Of a stretch of 57,044 nt of DNA, positions 12,102-55,365 are shown piece after piece. The notes under the pieces were generated by a model. The model was not told where the DNA came from, did no database searches, and saw only the letters and a program-made list of their open reading frames with translations. The stretch's first letter is position 1. Every line of letters starts with the position of its first letter. Source of the DNA: a virus. A program made the translations under genes and the position numbers. The stretch spans positions 1 through 57,044 of the IMG/VR virus record IMGVR_UViG_3300009132_000008; one strand, 5' to 3'.

Positions 12102-12839
12102 ATGCCTAAGCGCAAACTTAAAGAAATAGAGAATTCTTCCGAGATAGAAGAAATTATGAGTAGTATTGGTAAAACTAAAATAAAATTAAAAAAAGTTGAG
12201 TTTACCGAAAAACAAAAAGACTTGCTTAAAATACTTTTCGATAAAAATACAAAGATAGTATTCTTAAGTGGCCCAGCAGGTACAAGTAAGACATTTATGG
12301 CTATCTACGCTGCTTTGCAATTATTCAATATGGATAATAAATATAACATAAGTTATGTAAGAACCATAATAGAAAGCGCAGATAGAGGCATGGGAGCCTT
12401 ACCTGGGAATGTTGATGAAAAATTTTGTCCATTCATGATGCCTTTAGAGGATAAGCTTTTTGAATTATTATCTGCTTCCGATGCAAAAAAAATCATTGAT
12501 GATAAAATAGTTTCTGCAATGCCAATAAATTATCTTCGGGGAGCTAGCATTAACGATCAAATACTAATAGCTGACGAATCTCAAAATTTTAGCGAAAAAG
12601 AACTAGTTACTTTAATAACTAGAATAGGTAAAAACACTAAAATGATTATTTGCGGCGACCCAATGCAGAGCGATATAAACGGAAAGAGCGGGTTTAATAA
12701 GATTAAAGATATTTTTAAAGATGAAGCTAGCGAAGCTCAAGGGATATATAATTTTAATTTTGATTATAAAGATATTAAAAGAAGTGTAATATTAAAATAT
12801 ATAATTAAAAAAATAGAAAATCATGAAAAAGGAAACTAA
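12102..12839 (+). CDS. phoH: PhoH-like P-loop ATPase, 245 aa
   Basis: Walker A is SGPAGTSKT (residues 56-64). Walker B is QILIADESQ (about 154-162), followed by the family's TRIGKNTKMIICGDPMQ segment (about 174-190). The PhoH family comprises cytoplasmic ATPases related to superfamily 1 helicases, common in phages; the substrate is unknown, with RNA a suspect. The usual length of the ATPase domain is met. It starts the rightward block, two bases after a TATATAATA box, and overlaps the subtilase gene by 17 bases. Confidence 0.95.
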   Translation: MPKRKLKEIENSSEIEEIMSSIGKTKIKLKKVEFTEKQKDLLKILFDKNTKIVFLSGPAGTSKTFMAIYAALQLFNMDNKYNISYVRTIIESADRGMGALPGNVDEKFCPFMMPLEDKLFELLSASDAKKIIDDKIVSAMPINYLRGASINDQILIADESQNFSEKELVTLITRIGKNTKMIICGDPMQSDINGKSGFNKIKDIFKDEASEAQGIYNFNFDYKDIKRSVILKYIIKKIENHEKGN

Positions 12840-14073
12840 GCTTCCAGAATTTAAAGTTGAGCATAAAATAGCAAGCTTATCTCAAATTGTTGATTGGGGT
12901 TTAAATCAATTAAATATCCCTGAGACCTGGAAAGTTTCCCAAGGGGAAGGCATAACAGCTGTTGTTATTGACACAGGCCACCCAAATCACCCCGACTTAA
13001 ATAAAAATATAGTAAAAGGCATTAACTGCATTCAGGGAGAAACTATATTCGATGGGAACGGGCATCAAACTCATTGTACTGGCATTATATGCGCCGAAAA
13101 TAATGATATGGGTATGGTTGGGGTAGCGCCAAAAGCTACTTGTATATCTGTTAAAGCTTTATCTAATTCAGGTAGTGGATCTTACAAGGCTTTAGCTGAC
13201 GCCTTGGATTATGCAATTAACATTAGACCTCAAGTCGTATCTATGAGTTTAGGTGGATCTGTCCCTTCTGACATGATCAAGTCAAAAATTAAAAAACTTT
13301 ATGATTTAAATATTCCAGTAGTTTGTGCTGCGGGTAACGATGGAGAAGGCGGGGTTAATTATCCAGCTGCATATGACGAAACTATAGCCGTGGCTTCTTT
13401 CAATAAAGCTGGAAATATATCTATTTTTTCCTCGAGAGGGGAACAAGTTGAATGGGCTGCTCCTGGAGAAGGAATATATAGTACATATTTAAATAATAGA
13501 TACGCTTCGTTAAGCGGTACTTCTATGGCATGCCCTTTTATAACAGGCGTCATATGCTTAATGTTAGCTAAGCATAAAAAGCAAGCTAGAAGAACGGGAG
13601 AAAACGATTGTAGAACGGTAGACGAAATTAGAGAGCATTTGTTGAAATACACAATGGATAAAGGAAGAAAAGGAAAAGATAACTCTTGGGGTTACGGAGT
13701 TATAGATGTGGAGAAAATGATGCTAGATGGAGTTTTCGACCCTTTCCCTAAAGAACCTGAACCTGAACCTGAGCCCGAACCTGAACCAGAGCCTGAACCA
13801 GAGCCTGAGCCAGAGCCTGAACCAGAGCCTGAGCCAGATATACCTCACCCATATCCAGAATCACCAAAAAAAGATTCTAAAAAAAGCGTTTACATTTGGG
13901 CGGGGATATCATTATTAGTTTTAATTCCTTCAATTTGGTTTATATACAATTATATGTTTAAAAAAGAGGTTATTGAAGTTCCATATATAGATGAGAATGG
14001 AAATGTGGATTTTGATAAAAAACTAGAGTATGAATATGGTGGTGGAAAATGGCGAGAGAGGGAGAAAAAGTAG
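12823..14073 (+). CDS. Membrane-anchored subtilisin-like serine protease (S8), 416 aa
   Basis: The catalytic triad is intact: Asp50 in AVVIDTG, His81 in GHQTHCTG and Ser234 in LSGTSMACP. The oxyanion Asn lies in CAAGND (about 172). There is no signal peptide and no recognisable propeptide beyond about 40 residues. After the catalytic domain comes a run of about 13 Glu-Pro repeats (about 311-336), a membrane helix (about 354-376) and a 40-residue charged tail. It overlaps phoH (17 bases) and the next small gene (25 bases). The target is unknown: capsid maturation, host membrane proteins or exclusion are all possible. Confidence 0.92.
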   Translation: MKKETKLPEFKVEHKIASLSQIVDWGLNQLNIPETWKVSQGEGITAVVIDTGHPNHPDLNKNIVKGINCIQGETIFDGNGHQTHCTGIICAENNDMGMVGVAPKATCISVKALSNSGSGSYKALADALDYAINIRPQVVSMSLGGSVPSDMIKSKIKKLYDLNIPVVCAAGNDGEGGVNYPAAYDETIAVASFNKAGNISIFSSRGEQVEWAAPGEGIYSTYLNNRYASLSGTSMACPFITGVICLMLAKHKKQARRTGENDCRTVDEIREHLLKYTMDKGRKGKDNSWGYGVIDVEKMMLDGVFDPFPKEPEPEPEPEPEPEPEPEPEPEPEPEPEPDIPHPYPESPKKDSKKSVYIWAGISLLVLIPSIWFIYNYMFKKEVIEVPYIDENGNVDFDKKLEYEYGGGKWREREKK

Positions 14074-14240
14074 CTTTTGAATTCGAAGGGAAAATAATAA
14101 CTGGAAAATTAATTAAATTTTTTAAAAAAATAGGATTCGACGATCACGAGGAAATATATGCCGTAATTGTCCTAGATGAATGTAGATCAACATGTTTTGA
14201 TTGTGATATGGCGATAAATTCTAAAAAAATTATTGAATAA
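14049..14240 (+). CDS. Small protein, 63 aa
   Basis: Overlaps the end of the subtilase gene by 25 bases with a GGTGGT stretch just before the ATG. The pattern KVAFEFEGKIITGKLIKFF (residues 8-26), then EEIYAVIVLDE, suggests a small beta-barrel. It contains three Cys near residues 45-52. No family is recognised. It is probably co-translated with the protease. Confidence 0.65.
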   Translation: MAREGEKVAFEFEGKIITGKLIKFFKKIGFDDHEEIYAVIVLDECRSTCFDCDMAINSKKIIE

Positions 14241-21627: not shown

Positions 21628-22218
21628 ATGCAAAAATTAATTGTTGACTTATCTAGTAAAATTAATAGCTCAGATCTTTTTTGCGAAGATTGCGATTCTG
21701 GAGAAGAGTTTGAAATCTCAATGGAGTCTTGGGCTGAAGAAAAAAATAAAGGGAAAAAACTAAACAAACCTTTCAGGACTCCTAGTGGGCCAAAAAAGTT
21801 TTCTGTATACGTAAAAAACGAAAAGGGGAATATCGTAAAAGTAAACTTTGGCGATCCCAATATGGAAATAAAACGAGACGACCCAAATAGAAGGAAGAGT
21901 TTTAGAGCAAGGCATAATTGCGCAAACCCAGGTCCAAAGACAAAAGCTAGATACTGGTCTTGCAGACAATGGAGGGCAGGGAAAAAAGTCCAAGCCTCTA
22001 TTGAAGGAGAAATTAAAACGGAAAAAATCGAAGAGCTAATTCTAGAAGAAATTGACGAGTCTAAGGCAAAAGGAAAAGGTCTGTGGCATAATATCAGAGA
22101 AAAGAAAAAAAGAATGGGGAAAAATTATCGTCCAGCAAAACCTGGAAGTAAAGACTATCCAGATGAAAAATCTTTAAAGAAAGCTCAAGAGTCATCAAAT
22201 AAAAAGAAGAAGAAATGA
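21628..22218 (+). CDS. Conserved phage head-module protein with two basic boxes, 196 aa
   Basis: Box 1 (about residues 51-112) runs from KFSVYVKNEKGNIVKVNFGD through RDDPNRRKSFRARHNC to ARYWSCRQW. Box 2 (about 148-182) contains KAKGKGLWHNIREKKKR and PAKPGSKDYPD. Both are short conserved boxes I recognise from phage head modules, often next to portal or protease genes; their function is not known. The protein is strongly basic and ends in a poly-Lys tail, so DNA contact inside the head is plausible. Confidence 0.75.
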   Translation: MQKLIVDLSSKINSSDLFCEDCDSGEEFEISMESWAEEKNKGKKLNKPFRTPSGPKKFSVYVKNEKGNIVKVNFGDPNMEIKRDDPNRRKSFRARHNCANPGPKTKARYWSCRQWRAGKKVQASIEGEIKTEKIEELILEEIDESKAKGKGLWHNIREKKKRMGKNYRPAKPGSKDYPDEKSLKKAQESSNKKKKK

Positions 22219-23825
22219 ATTATAAGTATTCTACAGTTTTTTCCAACCCTATATTGAAATCTGAAGAAATTGAATCTAGGTTCAAGCTTGAATCATCCGC
22301 TTCTTTAGATAATTTAAAAGATTTAATTCCTGAAGAAATAGATTTTGACAAAAATATTGATTTACTAGGAGTCGCATTTAACGCCGCCTTAATTAATGTC
22401 TTTAATAGAAATGGAGATGGAATATCTTCGGAGACAGCTTTAAAAATAAAAGATTATTTTATTCATAAGCCTACAAATATAGAACACGATAAGAAAAAAA
22501 TTGTAGGGCATATTGTATCTTCTGCTTTTTCAGATTTAAACGATAGTAATATTTTAGAAGAATTAGACCCTGACGACCTAAATCCAGTTAATCTATCTTT
22601 AGGGGCTGTTATATATGCAGCTGCAAATAAATCCTTTGCCGCATTAGCGGAGGATTCCGTTGATCCTGATAGCGAAAAATATATGAAGGTTTCCGCAAGT
22701 TGGGAATTAGGGTTTAATAAATATTTTATTGCTGCTGGAAGTGAAAATTTAAAGGATGCAGAAATTATTTCTGAAGAAAAACATATCAAAGAATTATCTC
22801 AATATTTAAAGCCTTTTGATGGGGAAGGAAAGCTTAAAGATGGTACTCCTGTTTATAGGCTTGTTGTAGGAGAGGTTTTCCCACTAGGTATCGGTTTTAC
22901 AGCTAATCCAGCTGCAAAAGTGAAAGGTATTTATTTAGATAATGATAAAAAAAAAGATCTAAAAGCTTCGGTACAAGGTACGGAACATTATCCTCTTGTA
23001 AACACAGCAAAAAAAGAAAAAAATAAAAAAAATGAAAATAAAATTTCACAAAAGTGTAATTTACATGTAATAGATTCTATAACTAATATTTCTACTATGG
23101 AAAAACAAGATTTAATTGAAGATTTTAAAACTATTCTTGACGAAAAGATTCCTAATCATGGATTCAGTGAAGAAGCAGTTGCTAATGTTGGTCGCGTTAT
23201 TGGAGAAGCTATCAAATCCAAGAGCGAGCAGTATGAGAAAGAGTTAGCCTCTCTTGAAGAAGAGAAGGTAAAAGTTTCCGAAGCGGAAGAGCAAATGAAA
23301 GAAGACATTTCCTCTCTTAAGGAAAAATTAGAAGCTTCCGAAAAAGAACTTGCTGAGATTAAAGCTGAAGTTCAAAAAGCTAAAGAAGAAGAAGCTTTTA
23401 ATTCCAGAATGGAAAACATTAATTCAGAATATGAGTTGTCTGATGAAGATAGAACTTTATTAGCTTCTGAAATTAAAACTATCGGCTTATCAGAGGAAGA
23501 TTTCGAATCTTATAAATCTAAAATTTCCATCATGTGGGCTCACAAGAACAAAGAGTACATTTTGGAACAAGAAAAACTTTTTCAAGAAAAAGTTGAAGCC
23601 GAAGTTCAAAAAAGAGCCTCCGAAGAAAAAGGTGAAGAAAAAATTGAAGAATCCGAAGCTTCTCAAGAAGAGGTTGAAGAGTCTATTGAGCAAGCTTTAG
23701 AAAAAATCGAGCCTGAGCAAGAAGTTGTATCTAACAACAATTCTTCAACAGCTACCGAAGAGGAAGATCTTAGAGAAAAATTCGCTAAAGCTTTTTCTAA
23801 AGAAAATATAACCATTAAAATTTAA
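22215..23825 (+). CDS. Prohead protease fused to scaffold, 536 aa
   Basis: The N-terminal half (1-250) resembles herpes/phage-type prohead proteases: KPTNIEHDKKKIVGHI places a candidate catalytic His at 91, and MKVSASWEL gives candidate Ser160 or Ser162. From about 295 onward the protein is an acidic, Glu/Lys-rich coiled coil (about 295-400 and 430-510) of scaffold type. The fusion would both template head assembly and cleave it. An internal in-frame ATG at 23097 marks the start of the scaffold half. Protease class is inferred from motifs and position. Confidence 0.78.
   Translation: MNYKYSTVFSNPILKSEEIESRFKLESSASLDNLKDLIPEEIDFDKNIDLLGVAFNAALINVFNRNGDGISSETALKIKDYFIHKPTNIEHDKKKIVGHIVSSAFSDLNDSNILEELDPDDLNPVNLSLGAVIYAAANKSFAALAEDSVDPDSEKYMKVSASWELGFNKYFIAAGSENLKDAEIISEEKHIKELSQYLKPFDGEGKLKDGTPVYRLVVGEVFPLGIGFTANPAAKVKGIYLDNDKKKDLKASVQGTEHYPLVNTAKKEKNKKNENKISQKCNLHVIDSITNISTMEKQDLIEDFKTILDEKIPNHGFSEEAVANVGRVIGEAIKSKSEQYEKELASLEEEKVKVSEAEEQMKEDISSLKEKLEASEKELAEIKAEVQKAKEEEAFNSRMENINSEYELSDEDRTLLASEIKTIGLSEEDFESYKSKISIMWAHKNKEYILEQEKLFQEKVEAEVQKRASEEKGEEKIEESEASQEEVEESIEQALEKIEPEQEVVSNNNSSTATEEEDLREKFAKAFSKENITIKI
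23097..23825 (+). other. Possible nested scaffold start, 242 aa
   Basis: ATG at codon 295 of the protease-scaffold gene (MEKQDLIEDFKTILDEK) begins exactly where the coiled coil starts. Codon use also becomes less AT-rich from here. Upstream lies TCTATAACTAATATTTCTACT, which could hold a promoter box. Lambda C/Nu3 is the precedent for a nested scaffold. Confidence 0.4.
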
Positions 23826-32318: not shown

Positions 32319-35300
32319 ATGAGTGTAGTTAATATTCCAACTTCTGCTAGTGGCTATCATCAGAGTATAGTTAGCCAAGCTGCGTCTGCTCAAAGAGTTG
32401 TGAATAGAATGCAGATGAGCCCAAAGTTAAACCCTAATGGATTCATTCAACCTTTAGGAAGAATAACTAACTCAGCTAGCGAATTCCAGAAATCTATGGA
32501 CGCTTCTGCAGCCCGTGTTTTTGCTTTCGGAGCTGCCGTAGGAGTCATAAATGGAATATCAGACGCCTTTGCATCTGTCGTATCTTCCGCTGTGGAAGTC
32601 GAAAAAGCCTTAAAGGATGTACAAGTAGTTATGGAAGCTACCGATCAAGAAATGAGGAAGTTTGGTAGGGGCATATTTGATGTAGCAAAAAATACAGCTC
32701 AAAGTTTTGAAACCGTTTCTCAATCAGCTATAGAGTTAGCTAGGCAAGGTTTGGGAGCAGAAGAAACTTTAGCTAGGGTAAATTCAGCGCTTATATTATC
32801 TCGATTGTCTGGTTTGAGCGCTGTAAAGTCTACGGAAACTTTAACAGCTGCAATAAACTCTTTTAATAAAGAAGGTATAACTCACGAACAAATTATTAAT
32901 AGAATGGCTAATGTTGATGCGGCTTTTGCGGTTTCATCTTCGGATTTAGCGGAAGCTATATCTAGAGCTGGAGCTGTAGCTCAATCCTCTGGAGTTTCTT
33001 TTAATGAATTAGCTGCAATAGTAACTGCGGTTCAACAAAGAACTGCTAGAGGTGGATCTGTAATAGGAAATGGTTTTAAAAGTATATTCACGAGAATTAA
33101 AAGAAGTGGAGTGAGAGACGCTCTGGAAGAAATCGGTGTAGCTACTAAAAACAACGATGGATCTTTTCGTTCTTCAATATCTATATTAAAAGATTACGCT
33201 AATATATATAAAAATTTGTCTGACGCCCAAAAGGCTTACACCTCAGAACAAATAGCTGGAGTATTCCAGATACAAAACTTACAAGCTTTAATTCAAGATT
33301 TGAATGATGATGTATCTATTTACAACAAAGCTCTCGGGGTAGCTAATAACACAACTAATCAAGCTACGATGAGGAATGAAGAGTTGAATAAAACTTTGTC
33401 AGCGTTATTTAGTCAAGCTTCTTCAGAGGTAAAAGAATTTGCGGCAAGACTTGGCGAATTAGGTCTTTCGGGGTCTTTCAAAAATATAATCAAAGCTGTA
33501 GGAAGTTTAGCTGAATTTTTAAATGATTTACTAGACGAAGAAAAGGGTAATAGTTTGGCCAAAAGCTTCGTTAAAGGATTTGGGTCTTTTTTAACTGGAC
33601 CTGGATTGGTAATATTAGGGGCAGCTTTCCTTAAAATATTTAAATTAGTATCTGGTTTTGCCGTTACAGCTTTTGCCGACATGATGGGCATAAATAAAGA
33701 AGCTAAAAGACAACAAGGGCTTCAAGCAGCTATAGGTCAAGCACTAGCTAATAACAATGGGTTATATCAAAAAATTCTTGCAGCAGGAAGTAATACGGCA
33801 AAACAAGAAGCTATAATATTAAATTTAATCAAGCAAGAAACAGCTGAAAGATTAAAGCAAGAATCCATAGTAAGAAGGCTTGCTTCGAGTGGAGCTTTAT
33901 ATGGGATAGGAGCAAAAGAAACTGGATATGCAGCTGTAGGGGGAAAATTTTCTAGATCTAGAAGTATGGGAAATAAAGCTCTGGGTCTTTCTGGAGGATT
34001 TTTACCTTCAATGATGCAAGAGCAAAGAGATATTAACATGGGTATAGGCGGAGCCAGAAAAGGAGATAGACCCGTTGTTTTAAGAAACCATAAAATGGGA
34101 TCAGGTAAAACTCAAAATGTTGTTGCCCATACTGGAGAGTGGATGGTTCCTAATTTTGCTGGAACAGGTGGAGATGCTATATTTAATAGGTCTATGGTAA
34201 AATCTTTTGGATTGCCGAAGGGAGCGAGAAAAATAACTGCGTCTTCAGGTTTTGTACCTAACTACTCAAGGGGAAAATCTATTTCAGCTACATCTTTGGA
34301 GCTAGGATTTAAGGAAGGTGGAAACAGTTTAATATCTAAAAAATCAGATTACTTCGATTCTTTTTCATCAACTATAAATTTAATTAAAAATTCTTTAGGG
34401 ACAAAACAAATAGGTACGGCAGCACAAAAAGATTATCAAAAAATATTAAAACCTGTTTTTTTTGATGACAATAATAATATTATTAAAAACCCTACTAAAG
34501 ACCAAAAAGAAGTTTTATCTAGAAGATATCAATTAAGTAAAAAAGAATATAGAAAGTTCTTAAAAAAGGGAGTTGATGGAGTAACTTACGGAGAGTTAAT
34601 GAAAAGCTCCCCTTACAACGGTTTTAAAACTGGAATAAGAAATCTACTAAGCATGTCCTATAAAGGAAGGAAGCAACCTATTGAAATAGAAAAACAATTT
34701 TCATCTTTAACTAATATAACAAAAGGCGCAAGAGGAGAAATAGAGGGAGTAAAAACATTAAAAGCTTTAGGATATACTAATATAAAACCTATAGCTAAAT
34801 CAGGAAGCTTTGACAAGCAAGCTATATCCCCCTCAGGAAAAAAAGTTTTAGCGGAAGATAAATCTGGAAAATTTGTCAATAAGTATGGAATTTTAAAAAA
34901 AGGAGTAACTCAATATTTAGGTACTTTACCAGGAGAAGGACTTAAAGACCAAAAGAAAGATCACATTAATTTAAACGCTGTTAAAGCGGGGAGAAGTTTA
35001 ATGTTTCCTGGGGGATTAAATTTAATTTCTGCATCTGATACGAAAATAGGAGCAAATAAGATTACTCACGAAAAATACGCAAAAGAGTCTAAAGGTAGAA
35101 AAGAATATTTAAAAATGGCAAAAAACTCTTTTAAAGAAGATACGGGTCTTGAGCATGTAAGCACACCCGACCTTAAGAAGCTCACAGAAGTATTAAAAAA
35201 TTACTCATCATTTGCGTCTGGATATATTCCCAATTTTGCAAAAGCGGGAGTTCAAACTTCTTTAGGGTTCGTATCTACACAAAGAATTAACAGACTTAAA

Positions 35301-38300
35301 GATGGACAATCAGCAAATATAGGAGGAGGAAAAGTTTATTTAGATAAGTTTTCTGTAGAGGATCAAGCTAAAATAAAATCTTTTGAAGCTGAAAATTCAA
35401 AGCAGAAAATAGCTATAGCAGCAGAGAGCAGAAAAAAAGCTAGAAATGAAATGCCTACTATAGATGCTTCTAGGCAAGCGACCATGTTGGTGGCCACCAA
35501 TAATTTCAGAAAGAAAATTGATTCGAATTATAAACATGGAGATAAAACTTATAGGTTAAAATATAGAGTGGAGGGGTTAAAACCGTCTAAACTTAAAAAT
35601 ACTGAAAAAAATATAAGATCTCGAATTGAAGATTTAATGATTCAAGAATCTTCTGGGCTTGCGAGAACCTTATCTGGGACAGGTCAGTTTGCAGCCAATA
35701 ACCCAATCATAAAAAAATTGTCTAACGCTGGAAGCGCCGGATCAGCAGCGGGATCTATTTTTGAAACTGCATTACAGGCAATAGGTAAAAACAAATTATT
35801 TACAAGTAATAACGCGGGTTTTGATATAGCTGGTATGCCCGATGCTAGGCTGCAAAAACTTTTTGGATATTACACGCCTTTTGCTGATGCAAAAATAGGA
35901 TTAACATCAGATACCAAAAGAGATTTTCATCAAAAATTAATGAATCTTCAAGGGCAAACAAGAAAGATTTCAGGAAAAGAAAGAAAAGCTCAAGGAAAAA
36001 TGGCCTTAGACACAAGAAAGAAATATGGGGCTCCTCAAAGAGCTTCTGTAGGCTTCGTTCCAAATTTTGGCAGATTTAATTTATTCGAAGGGGTTAGAAC
36101 TACAAAAGGCGGAAAAGATTATATATGGGAAAACGAATTGGCTCAAGCAAAACACCAGTTACCAGAAGGGACAAAGTTTACTCCATGGGCAAAAAATCCC
36201 AAAATGCTTTTTGTCTCTGGGCATAAAAATAGAAACCAGATGACAAAAGATAAAATTTCTTTTGAATCTTCTGAAGACTTAAGAATGTTTGGAAAATTTG
36301 CAGCTAACGAAGGTTATCCAGAAGTTATGGCAGCAATAGTTAAAGCTTCCTCAGTAAAAGAAAGATCTAAGATTTTAACAGGTAATGCCAGAACTCAAAG
36401 AGTTTACGATAGGAAAGCTGGAAAAAACCAAATCGAAAAGATTCCAAATGAAATAAGTATTGAAGATATTAAAAAGATGGGAATATCTGATTTTAAAAAT
36501 TTCGAACTGGGAAGAATTGGAGCCAAGCTTGAAGATTTGTATACAGCTAGATCATTTGATAAAGTTGAAAATGAAAAGTTTATTCAAAAGCCAATAGGTC
36601 AGAAAGAGTATATGCCGCTTGGTGGAGCAACTGAGCCAAAAATGGCTGACGTTTATGACTCCAGGGAAAATATATTTAAGAATATACAAAAAACCAGAGG
36701 GAAAGATTTTGTTGAAGATGCAACTGTTCAAGATTTATACAAACGGTTTTCCGAAGAGCAAAAATTAAAATCTAATTACAATTACTCAAAAGGATTCATT
36801 CCTAATTTTATGGCGTGGGGTCTTACTAAGCGATCTGGGTTTGGTAAAGACGGATCAGTTTTTGAGCGGTCAGAAGGGAAAAAAAGAGTTTTACATGTTT
36901 CTCATATTAGAAGCGGGAGCGGAGAGTTTGGCTCTTCCATATATAAAAGATTACTTCAGGAAATTCAAGATGCAGCAAAAAGGGGAAAGCCTTATACCAA
37001 AATTGACGCTGGATCTATTGTAGGGCCAAGAATACCAAGAGCCTTACTTGCAGCAAAAAAAGTATTAGATAAGAAAAGATTAAAACAGAATATTCCAAAA
37101 ATGCAATTGGAGGGCATGTTTATACCAAAGCAATTAAGAGCGAGGGTTGAAAAATTTAGACAAGACAACTATTTTAGTAAAGATGGTAAATTTCAAACAA
37201 AAGACTCGTCTGAATATTTACCTGGGGAAGAAAGAAAGTTGATAAAATCTTTGCGAAGTTTTGGATTAGGTAGAAACGCTCATAAGCAAAAGGGGTTTGT
37301 AAATTTAGAAGATCTACCTATGGGAAAAAGTTTTTCAACAGGTTTTGTACCTAACTTTTCCAAGGTTAACATGAATTGGGGAAAGTTAAAAAGTGGGGAA
37401 AAAATGTTAAGTATCCCAGAAACTCTTTCTAGCCTAAGGTATTCAAAGCAATCCGGAAAAACAACAGCAATAGATTTTATATCTTCAATGAGAAAAGGAG
37501 ATGGGTCGAAATTATTTGAAACTCTTTTGAAAAAAGAAAAAGCCTTAAAAAGCACTCATTTGTCTCCAGTTAGAGTGTGGAAACAAAACTCTAAAACAAA
37601 TTTTGAAGATCTAATGTATGCATTTCCTCAATTACAATATAGGTTAAAAAAGGGAATGGAAACAACAGGAAGAATTAATTTAGGGGGAGGGAAAACTTTT
37701 AGATTTCAAAGCTTAAAAGATCTTAAAGAAATTGTTAACAAAAATTTTAAAAGAAATGAATTTCAAGGTCTTATAGAAGGTAAGTCAGTTCAAGTAGGTT
37801 CGGGAACAATCAGGCAAAATAGACTAGCGGTAGAAGATTTAACTACGGTATTTAATAAAAATAGAGTTGGGGATGATATATATAAAAAATACTCCAAAGG
37901 TTTTATTCCTAATTTTGCTCGTCCAGGAAGAAAGTTTAAAAGATTCAAAAAGGATAAATTTTTAAGAGATATTGGAAAGCGTCGAGAATCAAACAAACGT
38001 AGCAACGAAGAAAGTTATATTTGGGCTGCCGATAAATCTTTAAAGCTTCAAAAAATTTCAAAGCAATTACATTTAGATAAAATAGATGATGTGTTTCAGG
38101 GTTTAGGTTTTTTCTCCAAAGGGTTTATCCCTAATTTTGCTGATCAAGTTAATATTTCTAAAGCTTTGGAAGATATGTTTAAGAGGTATGGGAATTCTTT
38201 ATATAAAGACGGAAAATTTCCTGGGCAAGATTTTGGAGCAATAGACAAAAACTCATTTAAAAAACTGGATAAAATTCATCAGCAAATGTCTGTTTCTAAG

Positions 38301-41300
38301 ATATTAAAACCAGCAGAAGCTGTAAAACTACAACACAGGATGTTTAAGTATGACGATGAAAAATATCGAGGCCAAACTGGAAAATACATAGACCCATCTG
38401 CAGATAATTTCAAAAAACTTAGCTCTTTGGAAATGGCCGCTCTCGGTATGTCTGCAAAAAGAATGTCTGAATTACTTAATCAAAGAGCTTCTTCTACGGA
38501 AGGTAAGAAAATAGTTGAGTCAGATAGATTAAAATTAAAAGAGCTAATAAAAAAAGAGCAAGCTGACTTAAATAATTTAAGGGTTTATGGAACGAGAGTT
38601 GGAGGGGAAGATATTTTAATGCAAGACAAAGGGGTTAGGAAAGTCCCAATAGGTAGCGAGTCGCCCCACAGGCAGCTTAGGTTTCCAGATGTCATTCAAC
38701 AAAGAAAAGATCAATTAAGAGCTTCTATGAAAAGAGGAGGTCACCTTAGAAATTCTTTATCTCCTGTTTCTACAACATCAATGCTTGATAGAAGTATAAA
38801 TCAAGTTAAGTATTTAGAGATTGAACAGTCTCAAAAAAGATTAGCCCAATTAAAATATGAAATGGCATTGATTAGCGGGAAAGGGCATTTAGATACAGTA
38901 AGAGCTATTAAAAAAATTCCTTCTGATATTTATTCTTCTGGAGAAAAAAGAAAATCTATTAAAAAACTTTTGGATTTAGATTCCCACTTGGTAAGAAATT
39001 CTAAAACTGATGGAGTATCCCAACAGTCAAGAGTGGATAGAGCTAAATATTTAAACTCTTTAATAGAAGAAATAGAAGAAAATAAGAAAAATAAATTTTT
39101 ATATAGAAATACTTATGGTAGACTCGAATCAATTCGCTCTGGTGTTTCAGATATTTATTCAGGAGCTAAAGAGAAGTCTAGATCATTAACTCCAAAATTA
39201 AGGAGGTTTGGCAGGTTTTTTGTTAGAGGTTCAACTGGTTTTATTCCTTCTTTAAAAGAGTCTTTCGCAAGAGAAAAAAAGTCTTTGAAACAAAGAGGTT
39301 TGAGTAGTAAGGGTATAAGATTAGAGCAAAGCGATAAGTTAAAGAATCAAAAAAATCCAGAAGGTTTTGCTATTACTAATATTTGGGATGAACCACTAGG
39401 AGTAAACCAAGGAATATTAAGGTCTGAAAGAATGGGTATTGATCCAAAAAAACATGGAGCAATAAACTCATCTAAAGGCTTTATTCCTAATTATAGGCTA
39501 TCAGCTTTAAAGAGGTCGCCTAAACCCGCAAAAAAACCAAAAAAAGATATGACTCCTGAAGAGTTAGCTCAGGCTAAAGCTGCATCTCAACAAGCGTGGA
39601 TGACCAGGGGAATAGTAGCGTCAATGGCCGCGCCAATGATAGCAGATCAAATAAGCAGAGGAGACAAATATAATACAAGCATAATGGGAAATGCAAGCGC
39701 TCAAGCTCTTCAATTCGGATCTTACGGATTAATGTTTGGAGGAAAAGGAGGACTTATTGGAGCGGGGCTTGGAGGAATATATGGAGCAGTAGATGCTGGT
39801 AGAAACACAACATCAAAGGGCGCTTTAAAAGATATGGCTTCATCAATGAGAAATCAGCAGCAAAAATTACTTGAAGAAACTAAAAATATAGAATCTTTAA
39901 GAGATTATGCTGAAGGAATTAGATCTTTAAATGACGCGATAGCTTCAGGAGATCAAGATTCAATAAGGAATCATAGAAAACAGTTAGAACAGGGATTAAG
40001 GGGAATAACTGATGATGCTATTTTAAATGCTTTGAAAAACACCTCCGATGGTGCTGAAGGGTTAAGGGATAAAATGCTCATACTTGATGAAGCTCTAGAA
40101 AAATCAACTAGACAAGCGGAATCAATGAAAACAGTTCTTGAGGCTACAAGTGCTGTATTCGCCTCAATAGAAAACAATCAACCTGATTGGGGGGATATGT
40201 TTGGAAGTTACTTTACTGATATAGATCCTAAAGTAGATCTTTCTGAGTCAAGAAACTTAGCTCGTAAAATGCGTCCAATAATTGATTCATCAAGACGAAC
40301 AGATGTTGATGCGATTTTGAGATCTCAATATAAAGATTACTCAAATAGTCTCAAAGAAGGAGATGAAAAAATGTCGTATCAAGAGTTTTCTAATGAAAAA
40401 AGAGGAGGGGTCCAAATCAAAACTTTCGAAAATGAAATAAAAATACTTGAAGGCGACGTAAAGAAAATTAATCGTTTTTCAGAATTATTTGATACAGCTA
40501 TGGCTGAAAAATTTTCGGATAATGATTTATTACCTGAGAATCATACAAAAAGGTTAATTAAACCAGCGGATCCAGTTGCCTTTCAAGGTGGTGTTAAAAA
40601 TGTATTTGGAGGTGACGGAAAAGATGGAAAGACTGGATTAATAGCAAATCAAAGAGCTGTAGCCTCAATGATGCTAGGAGACAAAAGAATGTTAGATCTT
40701 TTCTCTGAAAATGGAAATTTAGGAGATTTCCTTAAATATGCTTCATTAGCCTCTGGATCGAAAATAACCGAGTTAAGTAAAGATGATTATAATAATAAAG
40801 ACGTTGGATTTGATAACAAATTTCAGACTGGAGGTCACTTTTTCGGAATAAATGATGGAGATGATGGGCAATCTATAAACGTAGATATGGTGAGGGAATA
40901 TTTCAAGATATTTCCCGAATTATTAAGCGATCTAAGGAAAAAGCTTGAAGCTGCTAAAGCTGGAGAAAAAGATATTGATACAAGTTTAACAGCCGTATAC
41001 AATATAGACGAAGAGCTGAAAAAAGCCATAAGAAACGCTCAAAGTCTGACAAGGAATTTAGAACTTTTTTCAAAAATTTTCGAACAATCTCAAAAAGCTT
41101 GGGGTCAATATATAGAAAATGCAACATCAGAAAGAATGGGAAAAAACCAAGATCTTTTTTCTGTTGGAGCTTTATCTAGAGAGGAATTTACTGAAAGAAG
41201 ATTTAGAATTGAAAGAGCTAACGCCATTGATCAAAACACTTTAAATAAAGAAAGTGCAATAATGCAAGTTTTATCAAAAAGGTTTGACCCCGATTCAACT

Positions 41301-42584
41301 TACGACTTAAAAGAGATGCAGAGAATGGCTAAAACGGTAGTTTCAGAAAATAAAGGGGGACACATTCGAAAGGTTACTCAAGATATAGCTGACGAAGATA
41401 GGCCTGGAAGGTCTAATTTTACAAATCTTTTAAACGACTTTATGTCTCGAATGAGAGCGGGAACAGATGAAGGTGGAATATCAGGATTTTTACAAAGTTT
41501 AAACGCAAACTCAAAATTGACTAATGAAATTCTAGAAGAAATAGCCGTATCTAACATGGGGATACAAAATGATCTAGAAGCAAGAATGGAAGCTATAAGA
41601 GTTCAAGAAAATCAACAGATTAGAGCGCAGGCTATAGATGTTATAGCTAAAAACGCTTCTTCATTAATTTCAAATGAAGATCAGTCTAATATATTACAAC
41701 TGTTTAAATTGGGAGGAGCAAAAAGTTCTCGAGGGCTGTCTCAATTTGGAATTGAGCAAGCCTCCTCTATTTCAAATGCAGATAGAGATTCTTTTGGAAA
41801 AATGGATTTAGCTAGACAGTCCATGGCTCAAGCAAGTCTAGAGAAAAGATTTGGAGTTTCTCTAGCAAGTCAAACTGGAAGAGATGGATTACAAAATAAA
41901 AGAAACATTTTTGATTTTAACAAAGGAATTTTAAAAGATTTAGGGGGAGGTCTCCCTGGAATGGACAGAATAATATCAAATATAGAAAACGCATTTGATA
42001 TAATGGAAAACTCAAGAGACGAACAACACGCTATATTTAAACAATTAGATTTAACTCATTTAGGTTATGGGACTGACGATGAAAAACTAGTGGGATTGCA
42101 ATTGAAATACCTTCCTGAATTAAAAACAATTAGTTCTGGCATTCAAACTATAGCTAGCAATTACACGCTAAAAACAAATGTATCCCCCGCTTCTATTGAT
42201 CAAAATGTTGTCAAAAATACATTAGCTACTCAAGGTCAAGCTGTAAGCCCAGAAAACGAGAATTTCTTATCTAAAGTTTTTGATGATTTTACCTCTAAGA
42301 TAGAAAGCTCAAATCAAGCTTTAGCTGCGGGAAATAACCTATTGTCTGAAGCTTTGGCGGTTATCCCGAATCAAATAAAAAATGAAATTTCCAATGCAGT
42401 ATTTCATCATGCTATAAATGGTAATGTGAAAATAGATTTTAACACAGAAGAGTTAAAACAAGCTTTGGGATCAGAATTAAGCTCTAAATTAGAAGAAATT
42501 TTTGCTAGTGGAACAACAGCTATGGTTGTAGCTAAAGCTGTACAAGGGTTAATAGAGATAAAGCCTAATCAAATAAAAAATTAA
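32319..42584 (+). CDS. Tape measure protein with embedded domains, 3421 aa
   Basis: Residues 1-400 match the phage tail tape-measure domain (VINGISDAFASVVSSAVEVE at about 75-94, then the SALILSRLSGLSAVKSTETL segment). Residues 600-2400 contain ten [FYM][IV]PNF-type motifs, at about 608, 644, 968, 1245, 1492, 1675, 1861, 1935, 2307 and 2387, separating distinct inserts. Insert 644-968 carries E807, D832 and E846-D-K848; insert 968-1245 carries E1149, D1169 and D1190-A-K1192. Both fit PD-(D/E)XK nuclease cores. A Gly/Ala-rich hydrophobic part near 2480 and long helices follow. It sets tail length and probably enters the host envelope with the DNA. Confidence 0.93.
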   Translation: MSVVNIPTSASGYHQSIVSQAASAQRVVNRMQMSPKLNPNGFIQPLGRITNSASEFQKSMDASAARVFAFGAAVGVINGISDAFASVVSSAVEVEKALKDVQVVMEATDQEMRKFGRGIFDVAKNTAQSFETVSQSAIELARQGLGAEETLARVNSALILSRLSGLSAVKSTETLTAAINSFNKEGITHEQIINRMANVDAAFAVSSSDLAEAISRAGAVAQSSGVSFNELAAIVTAVQQRTARGGSVIGNGFKSIFTRIKRSGVRDALEEIGVATKNNDGSFRSSISILKDYANIYKNLSDAQKAYTSEQIAGVFQIQNLQALIQDLNDDVSIYNKALGVANNTTNQATMRNEELNKTLSALFSQASSEVKEFAARLGELGLSGSFKNIIKAVGSLAEFLNDLLDEEKGNSLAKSFVKGFGSFLTGPGLVILGAAFLKIFKLVSGFAVTAFADMMGINKEAKRQQGLQAAIGQALANNNGLYQKILAAGSNTAKQEAIILNLIKQETAERLKQESIVRRLASSGALYGIGAKETGYAAVGGKFSRSRSMGNKALGLSGGFLPSMMQEQRDINMGIGGARKGDRPVVLRNHKMGSGKTQNVVAHTGEWMVPNFAGTGGDAIFNRSMVKSFGLPKGARKITASSGFVPNYSRGKSISATSLELGFKEGGNSLISKKSDYFDSFSSTINLIKNSLGTKQIGTAAQKDYQKILKPVFFDDNNNIIKNPTKDQKEVLSRRYQLSKKEYRKFLKKGVDGVTYGELMKSSPYNGFKTGIRNLLSMSYKGRKQPIEIEKQFSSLTNITKGARGEIEGVKTLKALGYTNIKPIAKSGSFDKQAISPSGKKVLAEDKSGKFVNKYGILKKGVTQYLGTLPGEGLKDQKKDHINLNAVKAGRSLMFPGGLNLISASDTKIGANKITHEKYAKESKGRKEYLKMAKNSFKEDTGLEHVSTPDLKKLTEVLKNYSSFASGYIPNFAKAGVQTSLGFVSTQRINRLKDGQSANIGGGKVYLDKFSVEDQAKIKSFEAENSKQKIAIAAESRKKARNEMPTIDASRQATMLVATNNFRKKIDSNYKHGDKTYRLKYRVEGLKPSKLKNTEKNIRSRIEDLMIQESSGLARTLSGTGQFAANNPIIKKLSNAGSAGSAAGSIFETALQAIGKNKLFTSNNAGFDIAGMPDARLQKLFGYYTPFADAKIGLTSDTKRDFHQKLMNLQGQTRKISGKERKAQGKMALDTRKKYGAPQRASVGFVPNFGRFNLFEGVRTTKGGKDYIWENELAQAKHQLPEGTKFTPWAKNPKMLFVSGHKNRNQMTKDKISFESSEDLRMFGKFAANEGYPEVMAAIVKASSVKERSKILTGNARTQRVYDRKAGKNQIEKIPNEISIEDIKKMGISDFKNFELGRIGAKLEDLYTARSFDKVENEKFIQKPIGQKEYMPLGGATEPKMADVYDSRENIFKNIQKTRGKDFVEDATVQDLYKRFSEEQKLKSNYNYSKGFIPNFMAWGLTKRSGFGKDGSVFERSEGKKRVLHVSHIRSGSGEFGSSIYKRLLQEIQDAAKRGKPYTKIDAGSIVGPRIPRALLAAKKVLDKKRLKQNIPKMQLEGMFIPKQLRARVEKFRQDNYFSKDGKFQTKDSSEYLPGEERKLIKSLRSFGLGRNAHKQKGFVNLEDLPMGKSFSTGFVPNFSKVNMNWGKLKSGEKMLSIPETLSSLRYSKQSGKTTAIDFISSMRKGDGSKLFETLLKKEKALKSTHLSPVRVWKQNSKTNFEDLMYAFPQLQYRLKKGMETTGRINLGGGKTFRFQSLKDLKEIVNKNFKRNEFQGLIEGKSVQVGSGTIRQNRLAVEDLTTVFNKNRVGDDIYKKYSKGFIPNFARPGRKFKRFKKDKFLRDIGKRRESNKRSNEESYIWAADKSLKLQKISKQLHLDKIDDVFQGLGFFSKGFIPNFADQVNISKALEDMFKRYGNSLYKDGKFPGQDFGAIDKNSFKKLDKIHQQMSVSKILKPAEAVKLQHRMFKYDDEKYRGQTGKYIDPSADNFKKLSSLEMAALGMSAKRMSELLNQRASSTEGKKIVESDRLKLKELIKKEQADLNNLRVYGTRVGGEDILMQDKGVRKVPIGSESPHRQLRFPDVIQQRKDQLRASMKRGGHLRNSLSPVSTTSMLDRSINQVKYLEIEQSQKRLAQLKYEMALISGKGHLDTVRAIKKIPSDIYSSGEKRKSIKKLLDLDSHLVRNSKTDGVSQQSRVDRAKYLNSLIEEIEENKKNKFLYRNTYGRLESIRSGVSDIYSGAKEKSRSLTPKLRRFGRFFVRGSTGFIPSLKESFAREKKSLKQRGLSSKGIRLEQSDKLKNQKNPEGFAITNIWDEPLGVNQGILRSERMGIDPKKHGAINSSKGFIPNYRLSALKRSPKPAKKPKKDMTPEELAQAKAASQQAWMTRGIVASMAAPMIADQISRGDKYNTSIMGNASAQALQFGSYGLMFGGKGGLIGAGLGGIYGAVDAGRNTTSKGALKDMASSMRNQQQKLLEETKNIESLRDYAEGIRSLNDAIASGDQDSIRNHRKQLEQGLRGITDDAILNALKNTSDGAEGLRDKMLILDEALEKSTRQAESMKTVLEATSAVFASIENNQPDWGDMFGSYFTDIDPKVDLSESRNLARKMRPIIDSSRRTDVDAILRSQYKDYSNSLKEGDEKMSYQEFSNEKRGGVQIKTFENEIKILEGDVKKINRFSELFDTAMAEKFSDNDLLPENHTKRLIKPADPVAFQGGVKNVFGGDGKDGKTGLIANQRAVASMMLGDKRMLDLFSENGNLGDFLKYASLASGSKITELSKDDYNNKDVGFDNKFQTGGHFFGINDGDDGQSINVDMVREYFKIFPELLSDLRKKLEAAKAGEKDIDTSLTAVYNIDEELKKAIRNAQSLTRNLELFSKIFEQSQKAWGQYIENATSERMGKNQDLFSVGALSREEFTERRFRIERANAIDQNTLNKESAIMQVLSKRFDPDSTYDLKEMQRMAKTVVSENKGGHIRKVTQDIADEDRPGRSNFTNLLNDFMSRMRAGTDEGGISGFLQSLNANSKLTNEILEEIAVSNMGIQNDLEARMEAIRVQENQQIRAQAIDVIAKNASSLISNEDQSNILQLFKLGGAKSSRGLSQFGIEQASSISNADRDSFGKMDLARQSMAQASLEKRFGVSLASQTGRDGLQNKRNIFDFNKGILKDLGGGLPGMDRIISNIENAFDIMENSRDEQHAIFKQLDLTHLGYGTDDEKLVGLQLKYLPELKTISSGIQTIASNYTLKTNVSPASIDQNVVKNTLATQGQAVSPENENFLSKVFDDFTSKIESSNQALAAGNNLLSEALAVIPNQIKNEISNAVFHHAINGNVKIDFNTEELKQALGSELSSKLEEIFASGTTAMVVAKAVQGLIEIKPNQIKN
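34140..39494 (+). repeat. Ten G[FY][IV]PNF-type motifs inside the tape measure gene
   Basis: Protein-level repeats, most of the form (S/A)-x-G-F-(I/V)-P-N-(F/Y): WMVPNF 608-613, GFVPNY 644-649, GYIPNF 968-973, GFVPNF 1245-1250, GFIPNF 1492-1497, GFVPNF 1675-1680, GFIPNF 1861-1866 and 1935-1940, GFIPS 2307-2311, GFIPNY 2387-2392. Gaps vary from 36 to 372 residues. They look like hinge or docking linkers between domain cassettes. Confidence 0.9.
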
Positions 42585-54030: not shown

Positions 54031-55365
54031 ATGAAGAATGTCAATATTATTATTTTTAGTGTAATAACTTTTATTATGTTTTCGTTTTTAACAACTTTAC
54101 TTTCAGCTTTATCTATATCAGTAATTGCTGCCTATTTTAGTATTATAGGCTTAGCCACAATATTTCCAGGAGCAAAAAGCTCTATCATTATAATGGGAAT
54201 TGTTTTAGAAATTGGTAAAATTATAACCATATTGTGGTTGCACAGAAATTGGGATAAAACAAAATGGCTAATTAAATCTTACTTCGTTTTCGCAGTATTA
54301 GTTTTAATGGCTATAACAAGCTTAGGGATATTTGGTTTTCTTAGTAAATCTCACATAGAACACCAAAACTCAGCTAATAACGAACTAGTATTAATAGAAA
54401 ATATTGAAACTAATATAATAAAAGAAGAAGGCTTTTTAACTCAATATGAAAAAAATATAGAAAATTTAAAGTTAAATTCAGAGAATTCTGGATCTAAATA
54501 TAGTAATGAGATAACTAGAGAAGAAAATAAAATAAAAAATTTATCAAATAAACTTAAAGAAGATATTAAGATAGAAACTGATAGGATTGATTCGTTAAAT
54601 AAAAGAAAGCTAATATTAGATGAAGAGATGGACACTCTTAAGAAATCTTCTGGAGGTCTATTTTCTAACAAAAAGAAAAAGATAGAAGATTTAGAAAAAT
54701 CTCAAGCCCAAGAGAGATTAGATATTAAAAGTAAAGTTCAAGAATACAATGAAAATATAGAATCTTTTAGGGGGGAATTTAATAAAGAATATAAAAAATC
54801 CAGCGAATTGATAGAAAGTTTTAGAAATAAAGATTCTTTTTCGGGGGAGGAAAATCAAAAATCCATAGATTTGTATAATGATAAAATCAGAGAATCTATG
54901 GATAGAATTCAAGAACTGAAGATAGAAAAAACAAAGTACGGTCAAAAAATAAGGGCTTTAGAAGTTGAAATTGGACCTTTAAAATATTTCATAGGATTTA
55001 TGAAAGATTTTTTCGGAATTCAATTAAATACAGATCAAGCCGTCACTATAATGGTTTTGATTATAATGAGTGTGTTTGACCCCTTAGCTGTTCTATTGGT
55101 AGTTGCAGCTCAGATAACTTTCATGAGAATGAAAGACCCTTTAAAAACTTATAGATTACTTTCAGATCGGATAAAAGAATTTCTTAGAGATAAAGCTCAT
55201 AGAAAAACAATAAAAAATATAAGCGAAGCTAGAAAGAAGAACGAAAAGATAATATCCAAACCTCCTTCTATAACAATAAAAAGGGAAGCTCCAAAAGCAG
55301 TTAAGCACGAAGAGGAAAGTTTCGTGCAAAAGATTAACGTGAAATTACCCAAAAAGGGGAATTAA
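54031..55365 (+). CDS. Membrane protein with long coiled coil, 444 aa
   Basis: Three N-terminal membrane segments (about 5-40 as one or two helices, 48-70, 85-107) are followed by a charged coiled coil (about 115-310, with the basic SNKKKKIEDLEKSQAQERL break near 210), then one or two membrane segments (about 340-372) and a basic cytoplasmic tail. The plan recalls phage membrane proteins of unknown role; superinfection exclusion or membrane-linked replication are possibilities. Its end overlaps the convergent ssb stop by four bases. Confidence 0.8.
   Translation: MKNVNIIIFSVITFIMFSFLTTLLSALSISVIAAYFSIIGLATIFPGAKSSIIIMGIVLEIGKIITILWLHRNWDKTKWLIKSYFVFAVLVLMAITSLGIFGFLSKSHIEHQNSANNELVLIENIETNIIKEEGFLTQYEKNIENLKLNSENSGSKYSNEITREENKIKNLSNKLKEDIKIETDRIDSLNKRKLILDEEMDTLKKSSGGLFSNKKKKIEDLEKSQAQERLDIKSKVQEYNENIESFRGEFNKEYKKSSELIESFRNKDSFSGEENQKSIDLYNDKIRESMDRIQELKIEKTKYGQKIRALEVEIGPLKYFIGFMKDFFGIQLNTDQAVTIMVLIIMSVFDPLAVLLVVAAQITFMRMKDPLKTYRLLSDRIKEFLRDKAHRKTIKNISEARKKNEKIISKPPSITIKREAPKAVKHEEESFVQKINVKLPKKGN

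Follow-up and report, generated by a model that had tools for sequence, protein, structure and literature searches.

What might a phage do with a subtilisin-like protease that is made without an export signal and ends in a membrane anchor? Phage cytoplasmic proteases beyond the head proteases are poorly understood, and the gene considered here (Table 1) lies in a 57-kb virus record, described as a marine-type phage; its full 57,044 nucleotides are referred to below as the window. A search with TerL recovered more than 400 related loci in IMG/VR, the relatives reach 205 kb in length, and no isolate match was found for the candidate major capsid protein of the window. The subtilase matches Pfam Peptidase_S8 (PF00082; E = 1.2e-45, residues 41-292) and the PHROG protease family phrog_3677 (E = 7.8e-75), its start codon is consistent with the relatives, and it carries both the Asp-His-Ser triad in subtilase motifs and the oxyanion Asn that characterize S8 subtilases. 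D50, H81, N172 and S234 do not vary across a 61-sequence alignment of its relatives, and a dN/dS of about 0.05-0.11 (pairs with dS < 0.4) indicates purifying selection on the S8 domain. The profile match, the invariant residues and the lack of an N-terminal hydrophobic segment confirm the initial annotation of this DNA, which had described an intact S8 triad without a signal peptide.

Table 1. Coordinates of the subtilase gene, its elements and neighbours in the window, and of its papain-family counterparts in other phages
Feature	Position	Strand	Basis or remark
S8 subtilase gene, 416 aa, predicted to be membrane-tethered	12823..14073	+	open ORF, profile match
LPEF motif (residues 7-10), placed by alignment opposite the inhibitory LIPY/F pro-peptide of intracellular subtilisins	12841..12852	+	sequence and model alignment
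Catalytic Asp50	12970..12972	+	invariant in alignment
Catalytic His81	13063..13065	+	invariant in alignment
Oxyanion Asn172	13336..13338	+	invariant in alignment
Catalytic Ser234	13522..13524	+	invariant in alignment
Glu-Pro stalk, 14 repeats (residues 311-338)	13753..13836	+	sequence
Single transmembrane helix (residues 355-375)	13885..13947	+	4 K/R in the preceding 12 residues, 2 in the following 12
Conserved C-terminal tail YIDENGNVDFDKKLEYE (residues 388-404)	13984..14034	+	predicted outside the inner membrane; also in some C1 proteases
phoH, upstream neighbour; one of several insertion slots, outside the mechanism	12102..12839	+	profile match
63-aa ORF, next after phoH where the subtilase is missing; downstream edge of the slot	14049..14240	+	comparison with L012 and L013
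Papain-family proteases with the stalk-anchor design, in subtilase slots	L040 2491-3567; L259 5974-7173; L264 5995-7197		

A subtilase profile search yielded 66 loci, of which 41 non-redundant close relatives were analysed for their layout. All 41 combine a proline-rich spacer of 46-125 residues with one C-terminal transmembrane (TM) helix; the stalk-anchor layout that was to be sought in other phages is therefore present throughout this set, and loss of the anchor in close relatives, named beforehand as evidence that would speak against it, does not occur. In the window protein the annotated stalk and single membrane helix both hold, and only the repeat number, given as about 13, changes (Table 1). 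The composition of the spacer varies widely among the 41 relatives (EP, KP, TP/TTT-KP), which indicates that what is conserved is length and extension, as in a tether, and not sequence. Between 0 and 41 residues follow the helix, and the short conserved C-terminal tail of the subtilase relatives has the consensus PYIDENGNVDWDKKFE.

The side of the membrane on which the protease resides was assessed by counting K+R within 12 residues either side of the helix. Positive charges are more numerous on the N-terminal side in 37 of the 41 relatives, with four ties and no reversal (3.7 N-side vs 1.0 C-side), and the N-terminus carries no hydrophobic segment in any of the 41 (over the first 40 residues, the highest Kyte-Doolittle mean of a 19-residue stretch is ≤0.85). 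By the positive-inside rule, which is a statistical one, this bias predicts a catalytic domain on the cytoplasmic side, held by a C-terminal tether with its tail outside, and so supports, as a prediction, the earlier proposal of a cytoplasmic, membrane-tethered protease domain. In the reverse topology the catalytic domain would be exported to the periplasm, with the stalk spanning that compartment as in TonB or the mycosins. Glu-Pro and Lys-Pro stalks are known from TonB and S8-linker-TM layouts from mycosins, both of which we count in favor of this arrangement, as we do an NCBIfam mycosin match to the window subtilase, though it falls below the cut-off. However, the signal peptide is absent in 41/41, the 37:0 charge bias favors N-in, and the N-terminal peptide resembles that of intracellular subtilisins, making an exported catalytic domain highly improbable.

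The layout is also rare outside the protease genes. A charged proline-rich stalk followed by a C-terminal TM helix is found in 38/50 S8 ORFs, in 7/15 ORFs of the papain family (C1, see below) and in only 2/1833 other distinct ORFs (≥150 aa). Of these two, one is the L264 C1 protein, which the motif filter did not catch, and the other is a repetitive ORF on the minus strand. This enrichment, together with the purifying selection on the S8 domain, argues that the layout is more than chance. The anchored S8 proteins form one clade on one side of a branch with an SH-aLRT of 99, and the anchor is absent from more distant phage subtilases at ≤41% identity (L137-L154). A host origin of the anchored subtilase was considered and rejected, as the stalk-anchor is missing from its best matches among cellular proteins (MAGs of Planctomycetota and Verrucomicrobia, 37-42%). 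Two records additionally encode a degenerate subtilase paralogue, a pseudoprotease without the Asp/His/Ser motifs (L133 6650-7738, L134 6635-7711), two genes upstream of a predicted active anchored subtilase and separated from it by a small FmdB-like gene.

An AlphaFold2 model of residues 1-308, with 61 relatives in the alignment, predicts a subtilisin fold for the S8 domain (pLDDT 95.8), the structural matches being subtilisins at Z about 42-45; a full-length model built from 10 sequences had a pLDDT of 53 and was set aside. The top-scoring structural matches are uncleaved pro-subtilisins, with model residue 1 aligned to the end of their propeptide. Among intracellular subtilisins (ISPs), the precursor 2x8j is aligned with the model from residue 2; in the sequence alignment, 7xr8 is matched from residue 5, which places LPEFK opposite LIPFK. 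In ISPs the LIPY/F peptide lies across the active site, which it inhibits, and their pro-peptides follow the pattern [LVI]-[IFLV]-P-[YFH] (PMC6220982). The window motif is an LP-x-(F/I/Y) variant that does not match this pattern exactly, and its LP is invariant across ten close relatives. In the model the N-terminal peptide probably occupies the active-site cleft, from where it is predicted to be autoinhibitory.

The initial annotation had taken the overlap of the subtilase gene with phoH to mean that the two proteins are made together. The overlap itself is real (17 nt, with a further 25 nt shared with the next ORF at 14049) but is not conserved, as in relatives the two genes overlap by up to about 25 nt or stand up to 223 nt apart. 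Nearer relatives have in common the order phoH - 63-aa ORF - TM protein - Zn ribbon - sigma-like - TerL - portal - candidate protease/scaffold - MCP, in which the subtilase follows phoH in some members and is missing in others; in L013 the 63-aa ORF begins 2 nt past phoH. Other slots for the anchored subtilase lie between an ERCC4-type nuclease gene and TerL, between nrdA and nrdB, and between SSB and an FmdB-like gene, so that at least four unrelated operons host it. On account of these several unrelated slots phoH was rejected as a functional partner, and a meaningful link to it is not supported. Six gains or losses of the subtilase are required on the TerL tree, and S8 is absent throughout the 205.9-kb relative G007. 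The gene is missing from G007 and from sister phages that have this operon, and it occurs in unrelated slots, which marks it as accessory, exchangeable cargo and probably not a part of virion assembly.

A virion maturation protease for proteins of the head or tail, one that would also cut the tape measure at its GF(I/V)PNF repeats, would fit the position of the window gene, which shares its strand with TerL and the head genes and precedes them by about 3.5 kb, as well as the repeat-rich 3421-aa tape measure. However, a prohead maturation protease should accompany the head cassette in every relative, whereas relatives without S8 keep the same cassette. The same repeat-rich tape measure occurs in S8-negative relatives (G004, G005, G007), on which grounds its dedicated processing by the subtilase was rejected, a separate candidate head protease is found in phages with and without S8 alike, and a membrane tether would be unusual for a head protease. 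Because the S8-less relatives retain the same head cassette we consider a maturation role improbable, in agreement with the earlier remark that head maturation need not be the job of this enzyme.

The candidate head protease of the window (22215-23825) is fused to a coiled-coil scaffold and has an H...SASWE motif and a conserved NNN near its C-terminus. Its position and the H...SASWE motif fit a head protease; no profile or profile-profile match was found, and hhalign against T4 gp21 and HK97 gp4, with a weak profile, gave no support. The tape-measure protein (32319-42584, PF10145) contains at least eight GF(I/V)PNF/Y repeats between unrelated inserted segments, and these repeats are clade-wide, with or without the subtilase. 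Further downstream, 54031-55365 encodes a 444-aa protein in which N- and C-terminal membrane segments flank a long coiled coil, with a weak tetraspanin match.

Our main new result, which with the intracellular-subtilisin-like N-terminal peptide goes beyond the initial annotation, is that other phages carry, in the same two slots and on the same kind of stalk and anchor, a predicted protease of the unrelated papain family (C1). The clearest case is the pair L002 and L040, whose TerL proteins are 93% identical. Next to phoH, in the slot that follows it, L040 encodes a protease of the papain family (PF00112, E = 3.7e-19) that has a KPEP linker and a helix at its C-terminus, and the flanks of the two loci (L002 7806-9999 and 11144-20900 vs L040 488-2684 and 3578-13367) align at 73-77% nucleotide identity up to the gene ends, while the genes between them are unrelated. 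The subtilase and C1 genes are precisely swapped between homologous flanks. A further C1 search gave 22 loci, mostly after phoH or in the slot between nrdA-NUDIX and f17-nrdB, which in L126 is occupied by S8. The C1 counterparts (L040 and relatives) belong to Peptidase_C1 by their PF00112 match and their NQGxxGSC, GGHA and QNSWG motifs. A clear TM helix is present in 9/14 distinct C1 proteins, all nine with the same charge bias as the S8 proteins, and in 5/14 the C-terminal helix is amphipathic and not clearly transmembrane. In L264 the C1 protein shares homology with the S8 proteins in its TM helix and tail (47% identity across 57 aa, PPYIDENGNIDWDKK among them; E = 4e-14 within a small set).

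The two proteases were not found together, as S8 occurs in 0/21 C1 records and C1 in 0/29 S8 records; most records are fragments (the largest 204.9-211 kb), so that the two might still co-occur beyond the ends of a fragment. A search of the phoH- and nrdB-neighbourhood loci for a third catalytic class on this chassis found none. What is conserved thus seems to be the attachment of a protease to the cytoplasmic side of the membrane, with a replaceable catalytic chemistry, and two unrelated proteases on one tether, in the same slots and without co-occurrence in the tested records, point to a specific job on that side.

Sequence comparison establishes the architecture and its conservation, the accessory status, the catalytic-domain exchange and the lack of co-occurrence in these records; the activity and substrate class that we propose are inferred. 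We give roughly even odds to an exchangeable, membrane-tethered cytoplasmic protease that acts on host or rival-phage proteins. An intracellular-subtilisin-type protease would be made without export and tied to the inner face of the host cytoplasmic membrane, its single C-terminal helix inserting in tail-anchor fashion (N-in, C-out). The stiff, length-variable proline-rich stalk would keep the catalytic domain off the membrane, and the short N-terminal peptide in the substrate cleft would probably hold the protease inactive until its removal. The tether would be a reusable chassis, onto which sister phages load a papain-family protease at the same slot on a like stalk, helix and tail. The most likely targets of the protease would be host proteins associated with the membrane, or proteins with which defence systems or competing phages act on its cytoplasmic side.

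A gene that is accessory, occupies changing slots and exchanges its catalytic domain shows traits typical of genes used against hosts or other phages. We therefore favor host or rival proteins at the membrane as what the protease cuts; superinfection exclusion and lysis are close alternatives. None of the neighbouring genes was recognized as acting in defence or counter-defence, so that it is the accessory, exchangeable pattern that carries the argument for a conflict role. A defence-system component was considered and rejected, the only matches being a generic PADLOC subtilase and a weak IetS. A more far-reaching proposal, to which we give somewhat less than an even chance, is a modular phage weapon, in which a conserved tether (proline-rich stalk, TM helix and WD tail) would receive interchangeable subtilisin and papain cartridges at fixed slots, with protease inhibitors of the host or shifting substrates as the force behind the swaps in an inner-membrane arms race, phage-host or phage-phage.

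In superinfection exclusion, the tethered protease would degrade proteins that competing phages inject, during their passage through the inner membrane. It would be positioned at the entry site, and an accessory gene with exchangeable catalytic domains suits phage-phage competition, but any substrate would need to be accessible from the cytoplasm, and we hold this role to be unlikely on the whole. We view a lysis or release factor, cutting membrane-associated proteins late in infection and so weakening the envelope or timing lysis, as rather unlikely too: the predicted membrane location would suit it, as would the small membrane proteins that adjoin the slot in L002, L003 and L040 (in L002 and L040 also a lipoprotein), but these proteins match no holin or spanin family, the slot varies between phages and the gene is dispensable. 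A holin/spanin cassette beside S8 was likewise rejected, as the candidates at L002 11325-12025 are without a match to such families. The lipoprotein (88 aa; L002 11759-12025, L040 4193-4459) has a single EF-hand-like loop and a TM helix at its C-terminus; its neighbours are a small membrane protein and a membrane protein with a GAF domain.

A search of the literature available to us found no description of a membrane-tethered phage subtilase, and the protein is best placed by comparison with known systems. Like the ISPs (B. clausii 2X8J/2WV7, Planococcus ISP; PMC6220982) it has an S8 fold and no signal peptide, and in both a short N-terminal peptide replaces the chaperone pro-domain. The ISPs, however, are soluble, whereas the window protein adds a stalk, a TM helix and a tail, and their exact LIPY/F is LP-x-(F/I/Y) in the anchored phage clade. 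The papain-family phage peptidases of phrog_16701 (L040, L259, L264) share slots and stalk-anchor design and differ in their unrelated catalytic domain. The mycosins (MycP) of type VII secretion share the subtilase domain, proline-rich linker and single C-terminal TM helix, but have a signal peptide and face the periplasm; the window protein does not reach the cut-off of the mycosin equivalog TIGR03921 (169.6 vs 278.75 bits), and no ESX genes were seen near it. In TonB, as in the window stalk, EP/KP repeats form a stiff, extended spacer beside one TM helix, but that spacer is periplasmic, the helix is N-terminal and there is no protease domain. Of the same protease family are the phrog_3677 subtilases of MTATph1, SP-15, BcoS-136 and Goe3/Goe8-type Bacillus phages (35-39% identity to the window protein), which fall outside the anchored clade and are without the long TM plus tail. 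The subtilases of SP-15, MTATph1 and PJN02 have no anchor, and in SP-15 (L157 4007-5134) a proline-rich linker leads to a small, SPOR-like-looking C-terminal domain in place of a membrane helix. Those of Goe3, Goe7, Goe20, Goe25 and Goe8 have a proline-containing linker and a short terminal hydrophobic helix, a rudimentary anchor, and this simpler stalk-and-hydrophobic-tail version in cultured Bacillus phages (Goe3 and Goe8 types) opens the question to testing in laboratory strains.
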